NCBI GenBank assembly: GCA_016213205.1
Contig: JACRAZ010000063.1
Coordinates: forward strand, 1-64,000
DNA length: 64,000 bases
Source of the DNA: Burkholderiales bacterium
GTDB lineage: Bacteria > Pseudomonadota > Gammaproteobacteria > Burkholderiales > Burkholderiaceae_C
Direction of reading: 5' to 3'
The notes under the pieces were generated by a model. That model worked only from the letters and a program-made list of their open reading frames with translations. It had not been told where the DNA came from and did not search any database. This document shows positions 54,255 to 62,797 of the stretch, one piece after another; position 1 is the first letter of the stretch, and the number at the start of each line of letters is the position of its first letter. The position numbers were made by a program, and so were the translations under genes.

Positions 54255-54559
54255 TGAAGGCGCAGCTGAAGTCGCCCAAGGCCGCCAGCGCGGCCGAGTG
54301 CGAGCACCTCGAGCAATTGCCCAACATCGGCCCCGCGATGGCGGCCGACCTGCGCGCGCTGGGCATCGCCCATCCACGCGAGTTGGCGCACCGCGATGCC
54401 TTCGTGCTGTACCAGGCCCTGTGCGCCCACAGCGGCAAGCGGCAAGACCCATGCGTGCTGGACACCTTCATGGCCGCCACCGATTTCATGCGCGGCGCGG
54501 CGCCGGCGCCGTGGTGGTCGTACACCGCCCAGCGCAAGCTGCTGTACGGGCCGGTGTGA
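54254..54559 (+). CDS. Helix-hairpin-helix protein (Cdd1-like)
   Basis: A 101-residue protein. LPNIGPAMAADLRALGI is a helix-hairpin-helix motif, and DPCVLDTFMAATDFM with WWSYTAQRK fits the Cdd1/'pathogenicity locus' family, whose name does not describe its function. Such motifs bind DNA. The ATG shares its A with the lexA stop (TGATG), so it is co-translated and should follow SOS control. GTG at 54251 is an alternative start. Function unknown. Confidence 0.85.
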   Translation: MKAQLKSPKAASAAECEHLEQLPNIGPAMAADLRALGIAHPRELAHRDAFVLYQALCAHSGKRQDPCVLDTFMAATDFMRGAAPAPWWSYTAQRKLLYGPV

Positions 54560-54731
54560 TGCCGCGGCCTTGAGCCGCAGCCCTGAACTGCGGCGCCGCG
54601 CTGCGGCATCGCCGGTGCGCGGCGCCGGGTGCGAAGTGCGGGCCATTCCCCGGGCTGATCCAGCGTTCTCCCCCGGCCGCGCTTCGAACAATTGGCTACA
54701 GCCGTGGCCCCCAGCGGTCGATAACGGTTGT

Positions 54732-55181
54732 ATGAGCACGCTGCACCACCTTCTGCCCACCTGGATGTCCCGCAGGCCGGCGCACCGCGACTCGGGGCTG
54801 CCCAGCAGCCTGATGTCGCGCGTGGAGGTCTGCCCGCCTGCGATGTGGCCTTCTTCGCTGAGCTTCTGGGGCCGCGCGCGCCGCTGGCTCGACCGCGCGC
54901 CCTGGACACCCGCCGCCCAGCGGCCGGTGAACCGGCTCGCCCTGGTGAAGGCGGAGTTCCGCAACAGCCTGGCCGATCTGCGCTCGGCCGACGCCGCGCC
55001 GCTGCGCGAGCGCATCGAACGCGCCCGTTCGCTGCGCGAGCTTTGGCACCTGCGCTCGGTGCTGTACGGCCTGCTGGCCACCGAATTCACCCAGGCCGCG
55101 GCCGAGGAGCGCATGGCGCTGCTCAACCGCCACTTCCCGATGCGCGCGCCGCGCAATGGCCTGACGCCGCTGGATGCCTGA
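54732..55181 (+). CDS. Hypothetical protein, paralogue of the next gene
   Basis: A 149-residue protein I do not recognise. The N-terminal 55 residues are basic and Trp/Pro-rich; the C-terminal 75 are helical and include RELWHLRSVLYGLL and NRHFP. That part resembles the C-terminal half of the protein encoded at 55262-55621 (shared pattern LWxLRxxxY then R...L...FP). Start ATG at 54732 follows a GATAACGG-like AT patch. No signal peptide or catalytic motif. Confidence 0.65.
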   Translation: MSTLHHLLPTWMSRRPAHRDSGLPSSLMSRVEVCPPAMWPSSLSFWGRARRWLDRAPWTPAAQRPVNRLALVKAEFRNSLADLRSADAAPLRERIERARSLRELWHLRSVLYGLLATEFTQAAAEERMALLNRHFPMRAPRNGLTPLDA

Positions 55182-55191
55182 CGTGAAACGA

Positions 55192-55260
55192 CCCCAAGCT
55201 CACTTCGTTCGCTGCGCCCGAGGGGCGCGTCAGTGCCTTCGGGCGGCCGGGCGGCACTGA
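55192..55260 (+). repeat. Structured intergenic repeat, copy A
   Basis: About 70 bases that are roughly 75% identical to the minus-strand copy at 62559-62630. Two hairpins: GCGCCC (55214-55219) with GGGCGC (55223-55228), and TCAGTGCC (55230-55237) with GGCACTGA (55253-55260). It ends one base before the ATG of the next gene. The second stem differs in both arms from copy B with compensatory changes. Confidence 0.75.
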
Positions 55261-55261
55261 C

Positions 55262-55621
55262 ATGCAGACACCCGCCCCGCGCCATTTCCTCAGCGGTCCG
55301 GCCAACGGGCTGGCGTTCCATGCCATCGGCATGCCGCAGGAGCGCGCCGCCCGCGAGGCGGCCCGCCGGGCCTTTGTCGAGATGAAGCAGCGCTTCATCG
55401 ACGCGGTGGCCGAGGTCGAAGGCACGCGTGGCCATTGGCTGCGCCACCAGGTGCGCCAGACCCAGGAGCCCGTCGACCTGTGGCTGCTGCGCGGTGCCGT
55501 GTACGCGGCGCTGGGCGGCCACGACCCGGACACGCTGCGCCTTCGGCTGGACCTGCACCGCGCGCTCGACAGCGTGTTCCCGGACAGCGGCGAGCTCACG
55601 CCCTTCCTGCCGCTGGCCTGA
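55262..55621 (+). CDS. Hypothetical protein, paralogue of the preceding gene
   Basis: A 119-residue protein with no family I recognise. It is mostly helical; the C-terminal half (EPVDLWLLRGAVYAALGG...HRALDSVFPDS) resembles that of the preceding gene product. The ATG at 55262 lies immediately after a structured repeat, so the true start could be a later Met at residue 24. No membrane segment. Confidence 0.65.
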   Translation: MQTPAPRHFLSGPANGLAFHAIGMPQERAAREAARRAFVEMKQRFIDAVAEVEGTRGHWLRHQVRQTQEPVDLWLLRGAVYAALGGHDPDTLRLRLDLHRALDSVFPDSGELTPFLPLA

Positions 55622-59977: not shown

Positions 59978-61510
59978 TCAGCCAAACCGGCCCTGCAGGA
60001 ACCAGCCGCCCCCCTGCCCGTGCAGCATCGGCTCGCGCGGGCAGAACAGCCACACCAGCGCACCATCGGGCAGGCCGGCGATGAAGTAGTCACGCAGGAC
60101 CAGATCGTCGTCCCACCAGCCGGTTTCGATGCGCTCGGGCCCTGCCAGCAGCAACAACGGCTGGCCATCGAGCCAGGGCACGCCGGCGTGCTCGGCCAGG
60201 GGCTGGGGCTCGGGCAGCAGCCACACCGGGCGGAGGATCGTCTCGGGCAGGGCCGAGGGCGCCGATGGGGGCGCGGCCGATGCCACCGCGGCGGCATCGG
60301 CCGGCTCGGCGCGGGTGGCGCGCTCGGGGCGGTGGTCCTCGATGGCGCGCAGGCGGCACACCTGCTCGCGGCCAAGCCGGGCCTGCAGGCGCTCGACCAG
60401 GCGGGCCAGGCCCGTGCGCTCGCTCGTGCGGCTGGGAAACAGCTCGGCATTGGGCGGCGTGCCGGCCACCAGGGCATCGCATTGCAGGCTGAGTTCGAGC
60501 GCGGGCGCCGGCAGCGGCAGCCGGGCCAGGCGTTCGGCCAGCAGCTGCTGCAGGTGGGCGGCATCGGCGGCCGGCTCGGCCAGCGCGATCTCGAGGGTGC
60601 TGCGCGCGGGCACGCTGTCGTCGCCCCGATGCCGCCGCTCGTGGTGCATGCACAGCGTGAAGCGGGCGATGCGGCCGTGCCGGGCCTGGGCCCAGGCCAC
60701 CAGCCGTGCCAGCAGCGCCTGCGCGCCGGTGAGCACCTGGGCGCTGGTGTCGGCGCGGGCAAACAGCTCGAGCCGGCTGTCGAAACGCGGCGGCAGTGCC
60801 AGCCAGCGGTGCGGCTCGGGTGCATCGCCCCGGGCACGGTCGAGTGCCTGCAGCAGTTCGGCCCCGAAGCGGCGCGCCAGCCCCGAGCGCGGCAATGCCC
60901 GCAGATCGGCCAGCGTGTGCAGGCCCATGCCCTGCAGCGCCTGCCAGTGCTCGCGCCCGGGGCCGAGCAGCCAGACCGGGGCTTCATCGAGCAGGTGGCG
61001 CAGCGCGTCGACCCCGCTGCTGTGCGGGCCCTGGGCCAGGTCGTCACGCCAGCGTGCCAGCAGCGCCGCCCCCAGCGCGGTGGGGGCGGTGGCCAACTGC
61101 AGCCGGTGGCCCAGCGGCTGCAAGGTCTGCCGCAGCCGGCCCAGCAGGGCCGCCAGGCCACCGAAGTAGCGCAGGCTGGCCTGCACTTCCAGCCGCACCC
61201 CGGTGGGCTGCGGCCCGGGCTCCAGTGCCACCGAAGGCGTGAAGGCCAGCGCCGCATGGGCCACGGCACGCAGGGCCTGCGCATCACGCCAGGCATCGGC
61301 CTGGCCCAGCACCAGATCGGGCAGCAGCGCCAGCGCGGTGGCGCGCTGGATGCCGGGGCGAACACCGTGCGCCAGCGCTGCGGCATCGGCCTGCACGATG
61401 CAGTGATGGCCATCGACCAGCGCCACCGGGCGGCCGGCCTCGGCCGGGCCCAGCGTGGGCACGAAGGCCTCCAGCGACAGCTGTGGCAGGTGCAGGCCGA
61501 TCCACAGCAT
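59978..61510 (-). CDS. imuB: ImuB, inactive Y-family polymerase homologue
   Basis: A 510-residue Y-family-like protein. The opening LHLPQLSLEAF and the VRLEVQASLRYFGG segment lack the catalytic acids of true Y polymerases, as in ImuB, which serves as a beta-clamp-binding adaptor. The little-finger part and an Ala-rich linker follow. It should recruit DnaE2 for SOS mutagenesis. It is 56 bases after imuA on the same strand; no dnaE2 gene follows. Confidence 0.9.
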   Translation of the reverse strand: MLWIGLHLPQLSLEAFVPTLGPAEAGRPVALVDGHHCIVQADAAALAHGVRPGIQRATALALLPDLVLGQADAWRDAQALRAVAHAALAFTPSVALEPGPQPTGVRLEVQASLRYFGGLAALLGRLRQTLQPLGHRLQLATAPTALGAALLARWRDDLAQGPHSSGVDALRHLLDEAPVWLLGPGREHWQALQGMGLHTLADLRALPRSGLARRFGAELLQALDRARGDAPEPHRWLALPPRFDSRLELFARADTSAQVLTGAQALLARLVAWAQARHGRIARFTLCMHHERRHRGDDSVPARSTLEIALAEPAADAAHLQQLLAERLARLPLPAPALELSLQCDALVAGTPPNAELFPSRTSERTGLARLVERLQARLGREQVCRLRAIEDHRPERATRAEPADAAAVASAAPPSAPSALPETILRPVWLLPEPQPLAEHAGVPWLDGQPLLLLAGPERIETGWWDDDLVLRDYFIAGLPDGALVWLFCPREPMLHGQGGGWFLQGRFG

Positions 61511-61566: not shown

Positions 61567-62559
61567 TCAGCGCGCGGCGTGGCGCACCGCCACCCCGGCC
61601 GCGGCCGCCTGCTGGGCCTGCTGCAGCGCCTGCCGCTGCAGCCCGCGCTCGTGCAGCCCCGGGCTCAGCACCGGCGGCAAGGCCAGGCGCAGCGGCTGCG
61701 CCAGCGGTGGCCCGCGGCGCTTGAGCATGCGCAGCGAGAGTTCGTCGAAGCCGCCGGCCTGCAGCAGCAGGCGCAGCGGTGCGGCGCTGGGCCGCTGGCG
61801 CGCCTCGCCCTCGCGGAACACGAACACCGGCCCGTCATGCGCCTGCGCGGCCAGTTGCAGCCGGCGCAGCGCATCGGCCTTCAGCGAGGCCGGCAGCCAG
61901 GCCAGCACGGCCGCGACATGGCCGCTCTTGAGCGCCTGCTCCAGCGCCCACAGCACATCGGCACTCGGCAGCCATTGGCGCAGCGGGTGGGGCCGGGCGG
62001 GGGCGGGCCGCCCGCGCTCAGCCGGCATGGGCGTTGGCCGCCCGGGCTCAGCCGGCATGGGCGTTGGCCGCCCATGGGGTGCCCGCCCCCGCACCACCAG
62101 CCAGGGCCGGGCGTCCACGCCCAGCTCGGCCAGCGCCTGCGCATACAGCCCGGCCGGCGGGTCGAACAGCATCACGCAGCGCGGGCCCCCGGCTTCGGCC
62201 CCGGCCTGGGTTCCGGCCGACAGGCCGGAGCGGGCCAGCGCGGCCAAGGCCGGGGCCAGCAGGCGCAGTTCACCCAGCCCAGGGTGCGGCAGCAGCAGTT
62301 CGGTGAGCACCCGGTGTGGCCAGCCGCCGCCGGGCAGTTCGGCATCGAGCGCGGCAAATCCGCTGGGCGTGACCCCCTGCACCCCATGGCCCAGCTGATG
62401 GGCACGCCAGACGGCCGGGTGCAGCGCTTCCGGCGAAGGCAGGAACAAGGGGGGCGTGGTGCGCTCGCCCGGTTCATCGGCCGGCACGGCAGCGGCTGCC
62501 GCTGCCCGTCCGGAGGGCGGGGGCACCGGGTCGTCGAAGAACGGCAGCGACAGGTTCAT
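61567..62559 (-). CDS. imuA: ImuA, SOS translesion RecA-like protein
   Basis: A 330-residue RecA/SulA-like protein. HRLGHG-like and ELPGGGWPHRVLTELLL segments fit ImuA, the first gene of imuA-imuB. A 10-residue tandem repeat GRPTPMPAE(P/R) lies in its middle. ATG at 62559 sits at the end of a structured repeat, with a LexA box 85 bases upstream. Its RecA-like fold has no clear Walker A. Confidence 0.87.
   Translation of the reverse strand: MNLSLPFFDDPVPPPSGRAAAAAAVPADEPGERTTPPLFLPSPEALHPAVWRAHQLGHGVQGVTPSGFAALDAELPGGGWPHRVLTELLLPHPGLGELRLLAPALAALARSGLSAGTQAGAEAGGPRCVMLFDPPAGLYAQALAELGVDARPWLVVRGRAPHGRPTPMPAEPGRPTPMPAERGRPAPARPHPLRQWLPSADVLWALEQALKSGHVAAVLAWLPASLKADALRRLQLAAQAHDGPVFVFREGEARQRPSAAPLRLLLQAGGFDELSLRMLKRRGPPLAQPLRLALPPVLSPGLHERGLQRQALQQAQQAAAAGVAVRHAAR
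62006..62065 (-). repeat. 30-bp tandem repeat inside imuA
   Basis: Two units of 30 bases (62006-62035, 62036-62065) differ at one base and are followed by the first 9 bases of a third. They add ten residues per unit in frame (GRPTPMPAE-P/R), so copy number could vary without breaking the gene. Confidence 0.85.
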
Positions 62560-62630
62560 CAGGACCGCCCGGCCGTTCCGAAGGTCCTGAGCACCCCTTT
62601 GGGGGGCCGCGAACGAAGTGAGCTGGGGGG
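62559..62630 (-). repeat. Structured intergenic repeat, copy B
   Basis: Minus-strand copy of the element at 55192-55260. Hairpins: GCACCCC with GGGGGGC around 62591-62607, and TCAGGACC (62559-62566) with GGTCCTGA (62583-62590). The end of the second stem contains the A of the imuA start codon. Confidence 0.75.
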
Positions 62631-62643
62631 CACCATGAAGGAA

Positions 62644-62659
62644 CTGTAGTTTTATCCAG
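62644..62659 (-). promoter_or_regulatory. LexA (SOS) box upstream of imuA
   Basis: On the minus strand CTG-GATAAAACTA-CAG is an exact CTG-N10-CAG LexA box, 85 bases before the imuA start. Its core GATAAAA matches box 1 of lexA. This puts imuA-imuB in the SOS regulon. It also lies 138 bases from the divergent msbA-type start. Confidence 0.85.
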
Positions 62660-62797
62660 TATCGCTGGCAAGCCCTGCCGGGCCGCCCCCGGCGGTGCGC
62701 CCACCCCAGCCGGTGCGCCCTGCCGGGCCACGGGACGGACGGGGCCGATAATCCCCGCCTGCCCCGCGCCCGGCGCCGGCGCCCACACACCCCCTTC

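Follow-up and report, generated by a model that had tools for sequence, protein, structure and literature searches.

MIRUs are mycobacterial repeats that appear to be mobile, insert at start codons and contain an internal ORF coupled to the gene they precede; insertion is thought to spare expression of the target gene (Supply 1997, as described in PMC12548453). Also in mycobacteria, certain genes are supplied with ribosomes by short upstream ORFs to which they are coupled (Shell 2015, cited in PMC12548453); such ORFs are not known to us as one repeated sequence family. In the engineered bicistronic design (BCD), a short leader cistron is placed before a gene for reliable translation (PMC5995908). 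RPE, ERIC, Correia and kindred elements are small mobile sequences that lie between genes or are fused to them in frame (PMC2229807). All these descriptions follow excerpts of the papers cited.

The repeat analyzed here is, quite probably, a mobile and dispersed cassette, about 75 bp long, that sits at start codons and carries a leader ORF, through which the ribosome would be coupled to the gene. As in the excerpted account of MIRUs, a short dispersed repeat has an ORF meeting the start of the neighboring gene (171 of 186 copies; 32 of 34 in a later set) and occupies start codons for which empty sites exist elsewhere (6 of 6 loci, insertion being the presumed direction). MIRU coupling is described with a spacing of -4 nt (ATGA); the cassette has ATGA in 25 of the 186 copies, TGA-N-ATG in 104 and TGATG in 30. 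Unlike the MIRUs so described, it has Burkholderiales hosts, several junction types (TGA-N-ATG, TGATG, ATGA), three reading frames, a second hairpin whose arms change together and, in its source genome, many copies directly behind a -10-like box. The cassette thus seems to work like a MIRU; the likeness is one of description without sequence comparison, the hosts differ and membership is not claimed. It shares with BCD, as excerpted, the short leader cistron before a gene and may be regarded as its natural counterpart, being dispersed and structured. Like RPE, ERIC and Correia it is small, structured, dispersed and non-autonomous, and some of those elements also have open frames; insertion at a start codon with a stop/start junction is not described for them in the excerpt of PMC2229807.

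Two cassette copies in the window

The window, that is, the whole stretch of DNA analyzed, comprises 64,000 nt from a Burkholderiales bacterium (GCA_016213205.1, contig JACRAZ010000063.1, positions 1-64,000 of the forward strand). Two related copies lie in it where the original prediction had placed them. When copy 1 was compared to the whole genome by BLAST, copy 2 was recovered at 81% identity over 69 query bases (E 1.7e-9), somewhat above the identity of about 75% first proposed; the search returned 29 matches, the query itself counted. A repeat search over the whole window did not have the two copies among the families listed.

Copy 1 matches R1, a covariance model built from 11 copies of the source genome with hairpins 1 and 2 entered by hand, at 55191..55260 on the plus strand (70.7 bits), both hairpins falling inside the match. 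Its leader ORF (55183..55260, plus strand) begins with GTG, spans 25 codons (VKRPQAHFVRCARGARQCLRAAGRH) and ends with a TGA at 55258-55260. A single base separates this stop from the ATG of the next gene (TGA-C-ATG), orf119 (55262..55621, plus strand, 119 aa), for which a Pfam scan gave no match at E<=1e-5. The stop codon of the upstream ORF (listed at 54396-55181) occupies 55179..55181 on the same strand, 4 nt ahead of the leader start, a layout suggestive of a gene-leader-gene relay. Hairpin 1 pairs GCGCCC with GGGCGC in the predicted fold. Hairpin 2 (55230..55260, plus strand) has arms TCAGTGCC/GGCACTGA around a 15-nt loop (TTCGGGCGGCCGGGC), its 3′ arm finishing in the leader stop codon.

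Copy 2 lies on the minus strand (62559..62630) and scores 102.3 bits with R1, a value to be read in light of its being among the 11 copies from which the model was built. Its leader ORF (62559..62636, minus strand; ATG start, 25 codons, MVPPSSLRSRPPKGVLRTFGTAGRS) shares its stop with the start of the downstream gene as TGATG. This gene (61567..62559, minus strand) is imuA (NCBIfam NF033429, 163.8 bits, cut-off 150); the ORF that comes after it (59978-61510) is presumably imuB-like. Upstream of the leader, a palindrome (ACTGGATAAAACTACAGT, 62643..62660, minus strand) contains a -10-like TACAGT ending 6 nt before the leader ATG. This palindrome is LexA-box-like. The hairpin 2 arms of copy 2, TCAGGACC/GGTCCTGA, differ from those of copy 1 at two positions in each arm with pairing kept, and the loop measures 16 nt (TTCGGAACGGCCGGGC). 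The compensatory changes and the 15-16 base loops are thus as originally described, and so is the abutment of either copy on the ATG of a gene in the same orientation. When folding energies were compared to those of 200 shuffles, copy 1 gave a z of -1.70 (10/200 as good) and copy 2 a z of +0.34 (119/200). Since neither copy folds much better than shuffled sequence, the case rests on the family.

A repeat family at start codons

A search of the source genome with R1 yielded 64 matches at E<=0.1 and 47 at E<=1e-6, and extension to relatives revealed a dispersed family. Among 60 genomes searched, 35 match at E<=1e-4, the source genome included: 20 of 20 from the same genus, 13 of 15 other family members and 1 of 24 from other families of the order. 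At E<=1e-6, matches were obtained in 127 of 200 genomes of a family sample (96 of 141 genera; source genome counted) and in 3 of 185 genomes of a class sample (the source genome, one further member of its family and one genome from a different family); since R1 was trained on the source genome, little weight attaches to a lack of matches elsewhere. Named genomes were scanned with a sequence pattern, and among the matches listed are Rubrivivax, Roseateles, Pseudorhodoferax, Aquabacterium, Variovorax, Ideonella, Ramlibacter, Leptothrix and others, as well as single metagenome bins named Thiobacillus, Hydrogenophilus and Methyloversatilis. Phage records searched with copy 2 gave no match, and plasmid records gave three cassette matches, all from Variovorax. 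The cassette repeat appears in no title or abstract opening of the literature searched, which consisted of open-licence PMC papers only and does not establish its absence in print.

Copy numbers range from 1 to at least 82 R1 matches per genome among the 20 same-genus genomes. Dispersed hairpin repeats with this distribution could be palindromic elements of the REP/RAYT or IS200/IS605 type, moved by a Y1 transposase and located at start codons only as a by-product, and a Y1_Tnp match is present in 9 of the 20 same-genus relatives, including G013 (25 copies) and G020 (21). To this explanation we give very little credence. In a transposase search that covered the Y1 type only, no Y1_Tnp (PF01797) match at E<=1e-5 was found in the four most copy-rich genomes examined, namely the source genome, G003, G016 and G017 (48, 61, at least 82 and 32 copies, respectively), and the position of the repeat is non-random, being the start codon.

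For the analysis of this position we assembled 221 copies: 47 from the source genome (R1 >=40 bits), 83 of 96 matches from loci of the pattern scan (the other 13, short, cut-off or weak, were left out before counting) and a further 91. Removal of 11 duplicates left 210 non-redundant copies. The 96-match search covered 80 of the 112 loci from that scan of named genomes. A later set of 40 copies from other genera, obtained with the same model, gave 37 new ones after removal of 3 duplicates (one of them, L530, was counted without a downstream ORF length). Some of the regions were picked by hand among the top-scoring rows, which gives strong copies more than their share; the copies are related, and counts per copy do not represent independent events.

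An ATG opening an ORF of at least 60 codons lies at -1 to +3 of the copy end, in the gene's orientation, in 162 of the 210 copies, compared with 283 of 8679 random positions (3.3%). The abutment on start codons seen in the window is thus a property of the family. Chance similarity is rejected by copy number, start-codon adjacency and pairing (see below). A start codon was in range in 193 of the 210 copies (17 had none), and 186 of these 193 have a leader starting with ATG or GTG (7 do not). Read directly from the sequences, the leader ORF begins a few bases 5′ of the repeat and ends at the downstream start codon in nearly every copy: in 171 of 186 copies, the leader stop lies within -6 to +2 nt of where the gene starts, as against an average expectation of 39% over the three frames. 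Leader length is 25 codons in 91 of the 171 coupled copies. The source genome has 42 of these leaders; 40 meet a start, and the remaining two belong to tandem copies that read into the next one. The same rule applied to the later set gave 34 of 37 copies with a start in range (3 without) and 32 of these 34 with a leader meeting it; one of the two misses stops at -10 and the other, L529, continues in frame into the gene. In L529 the leader stop has turned into TGG, and the leader would extend the N-terminus of the gene product. The 15 leaders off the junction in the main set comprise 6 tandem copies reading into the next copy, 3 with stops at -10, -8 and -7, and the copies L125, L143:6908, L180, L187, L229 and L275:4395. 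Of these last six, L125, L180, L187 and L229 have the leader in the reading frame of the downstream ORF; in L143:6908 an alternative GTG places the leader stop at -4.

Reading frames and hairpin pairing

The same conserved DNA is read in three frames, used by 131, 23 and 17 of the 171 coupled copies, the leader head reading QAHFVR, SSLRSL or LTSFAA depending on the copy. Because the cassette is read in all three frames, the peptide sequence is likely irrelevant. This bears on whether the leaders might form a regulatory peptide (attenuator) family, sensing a ligand or amino acid by ribosome stalling. A short leader ORF, hairpins and proximity to a start codon are all present, as such a family would have them; the use of three frames of the same DNA leaves no conserved peptide and leads us to reject this reading, which we find scarcely credible. 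Nor do the 20 downstream proteins scanned belong to a common pathway.

The junction is adjusted to the frame in use. In the frame that requires ATGA, among copies whose leader reaches the gene start without a stop, base +4 is an A in 25 of 28, compared with 47 of 150 copies whose leader has stopped earlier (p 8.7e-9). Without flagged tandems the values are 23 of 25 and 41 of 139 (p 3.4e-9), and the later set gave 4 of 4. The three misses are one tandem copy and both L143 copies. Copies were grouped in this test by frame alone; grouping by the ATGA stop itself (25/25 versus 45/146) is circular and was not used. Downstream 40-mers are all different among the 171 coupled copies.

Length variation follows the frame as well. 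Sixteen copies exceed 85 nt; 14 of them are 27 or 30 bases longer than the 72- or 70-base form, and all 14 meet the start; the other two, the 98-nt copies L180 and L187, miss it. Two sets of tandem copies are fused in frame into one longer leader. One is a triple copy (G000:C8:23322-23543) with a 75-nt unit, in which TGA has become TGG; the other is a double copy (G000:C25:33649-33795), in which the stop is avoided by one extra base. In two further tandems (G000:C57:13952-14127 and G000:C107:17452-17600), TGATG junctions link each leader to the next.

The sense frames of the copy body are all free of stop triplets in 156 of 174 copies; the corresponding figure is 7 of 174 for the antisense strand and 44% for base shuffles. 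The latter value would be compatible with a simple cis-regulatory RNA structure or cruciform at start codons, whose open frame is incidental to GC-rich DNA; adjacency to the start codon and arms that change together also fit such an element. We regard this possibility as improbable, given that the leader stop meets the gene start far above the frame expectation (171/186 versus 39%) and given the ATGA bias (25/28 versus 47/150), the in-frame tandem fusions and the 27- or 30-nt inserts. Moreover, Rfam 15 at gathering score gave no match in the window or in eight copy-bearing loci. A known Rfam RNA is rejected on this account, the best sub-threshold match at copy 1 being RF02500 (22.6 bits versus a gathering score of 60). 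It is very improbable, too, that we are dealing with an ordinary MITE-like repeat and with ORF-gene fusions of the sort described for RPE or ERIC. L125, L180, L187, L229 and L529, which continue in frame into the downstream ORF, conform to that description, but leader and gene share one frame in only 6 of 168 non-tandem copies, 2 of these 6 leaders stop just before the start, and the stop/start junction is the rule.

Hairpin 2 was examined in 193 copies anchored on the loop alone. They contain 87 distinct arm pairs with 87.5% of positions paired, compared with 70.3% (largest value 74.1%) in 1000 shuffles of either kind; shuffling leaves the relatedness of the copies in place, so this excess is not to be read as a probability. 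All four Watson-Crick pair types are present at the variable positions. Thus, the covariation first noticed between the two window copies extends to the family, with arms that change together and pairing above that of shuffles. Of 15 copies scored with no more than 6 of 8 arm pairs, 14 still have a leader that meets the start, suggesting that the hairpin may be dispensable for coupling; for at least three of these 15 (C101, C20 and L289), the anchor seems to have been placed in error, on a variant or shifted hairpin. At mnmA of relative G016, a shortened cassette (L304) has no hairpin 2 and retains the TGATG junction with mnmA. Hairpin 2 may serve to mask the start of the gene, to help the element move, or to do both. 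The original prediction had envisaged an RNA or cruciform function, perhaps control of start-codon access. Its bases in kept pairing and start-codon siting stand, and neither outcome that it had named as refuting, a family lacking excess covariation or one placed randomly with respect to start codons and orientation, was observed; it had missed the leader ORF and the empty sites. Control of start-codon access is possible, and coupling to translation of the leader appears more likely than a free-standing RNA switch.

Empty sites, genomic settings and a proposed ribosome relay

Relatives have cassette-free orthologues at all six loci checked, which were of our choosing (mnmA, parE, imuA, dnaQ, orf119 and murE). 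In relatives, the parE promoter is followed by the gene ATG (e.g., gcctacaatcccgcgcc-ATG); in the source genome, the cassette stands between a nearly identical promoter and the gene. This pattern is repeated at mnmA, dnaQ and imuA. The imuA start codon is GTG in at least 10 relatives and ATG in the source genome; cassette-free relatives have a box resembling the 62643-62660 palindrome just ahead of imuA, the GTG lying directly downstream. Where copy 1 stands, relatives have a short or overlapping two-gene junction. At murE, most same-genus relatives are without the cassette and G016 has a divergent copy. As relatives have these genes without the cassette, insertion at the start codon, with gain in the lineage of the source genome, is the simplest reading. 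The differences between relatives would then be gains, and a mechanism for mobility presumably exists.

The targets are diverse. Eighteen of 20 downstream proteins scanned (10 with Pfam, 10 with NCBIfam) have a match at E<=1e-5, with no pathway in common. Scores above the NCBIfam cut-off were obtained for imuA, a tartrate dehydrogenase, urtD and thiL. Domain or sub-cut-off matches, some of them from truncated proteins, suggest the names rlmI, mnmA, proC, proA, parE, dnaQ and apaG and, likewise, murE, a response regulator, dusC, aceK, cheR, nifE and recG. In two of the three Variovorax plasmid matches, those with annotation, zwf and an ABC permease begin exactly at the cassette end, as given in a gene table that is incomplete by its own notice; on the zwf plasmid, gnd ends directly before the leader GTG.

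Cassettes occur in two settings. Leaders of the TGATG type (20 of 42 in the source genome) lie for the most part, judged by eye, behind a -10-like box ending approximately 6-8 nt before the leader ATG, a position from which a leaderless mRNA is predicted. Taking all sources together, such a box (at least 4/6 matches) precedes 17 of 30 TGATG copies as against 15 of 104 TGA-N-ATG copies (p 8e-6); control windows gave 3 of 120. In turn, an ORF of at least 100 codons ends at -6 to +1 of the leader start in 61 of 96 TGA-N-ATG copies, compared with 91 of 1702 control ATGs, and this type appears to be mainly operon-internal. The window holds one example of each: copy 1 is in the operon-internal setting, and copy 2 is promoter-adjacent, before imuA.

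From the sequences we propose the following relay. A cassette of about 75 bp would insert at a start codon, bringing a leader ORF with its own start and stop. For ribosomes, the leader start would be the point of entry, reached on a leaderless mRNA right behind the promoter or through coupling to the upstream operon gene; they would then read some 25 codons, opening hairpin 2. The leader stop overlaps or touches the gene start, and the gene would be begun by termination-reinitiation, the stop/start overlap being re-registered to fit each frame. The leader is likely translated, with the gene depending on it, and hairpin 2 may hide the gene start when the leader goes unread. With the ribosome handed on to the gene, expression of the target would stay possible after insertion, with little harm done. 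In wider terms, the cassette might represent a class of start-site-targeting mobile elements, found largely in one betaproteobacterial family: a universal ribosome relay, mostly stop-free in three sense frames, whose closing stop is re-registered on the target start and whose covarying hairpin either gates the gene to leader translation or serves as substrate of an unknown moving enzyme. We put this forward tentatively, as a serious possibility that we stop short of favoring.

These data suggest that a start-codon-inserting repeat that spares genes, core ones included (parE, mnmA, dnaQ), exists in a second, distant bacterial lineage. With some 50 natural copies in one genome and empty sites in close relatives, two questions become directly testable: whether termination-reinitiation or RNA unfolding drives the coupling, and how a start-codon-specific element moves. 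The leaders are short enough to be overlooked, and annotation may be affected.

Several observations were made in passing. In many relatives (L303-L316, L333-L344), mnmA and parE have a -10-like box approximately 7 nt before the start codon, which suggests conserved leaderless mRNAs for core genes in the genus. Three weak R1 matches of the source genome (G000:C50:93307-93376, C75:3885-3938 and C66:12132-12180; 26.7-28.1 bits) have a CCCCC/GGGGG core and are not visibly at start codons; they are perhaps a related repeat family without leader function. Finally, G000:C101:7024-7096 and G000:C20:206-279 have a variant second hairpin (GGCCTC/GAGGCC and AGCCTC/GAGGCT) with a TTTGGGGC loop, possibly defining a sister subfamily of the cassette.
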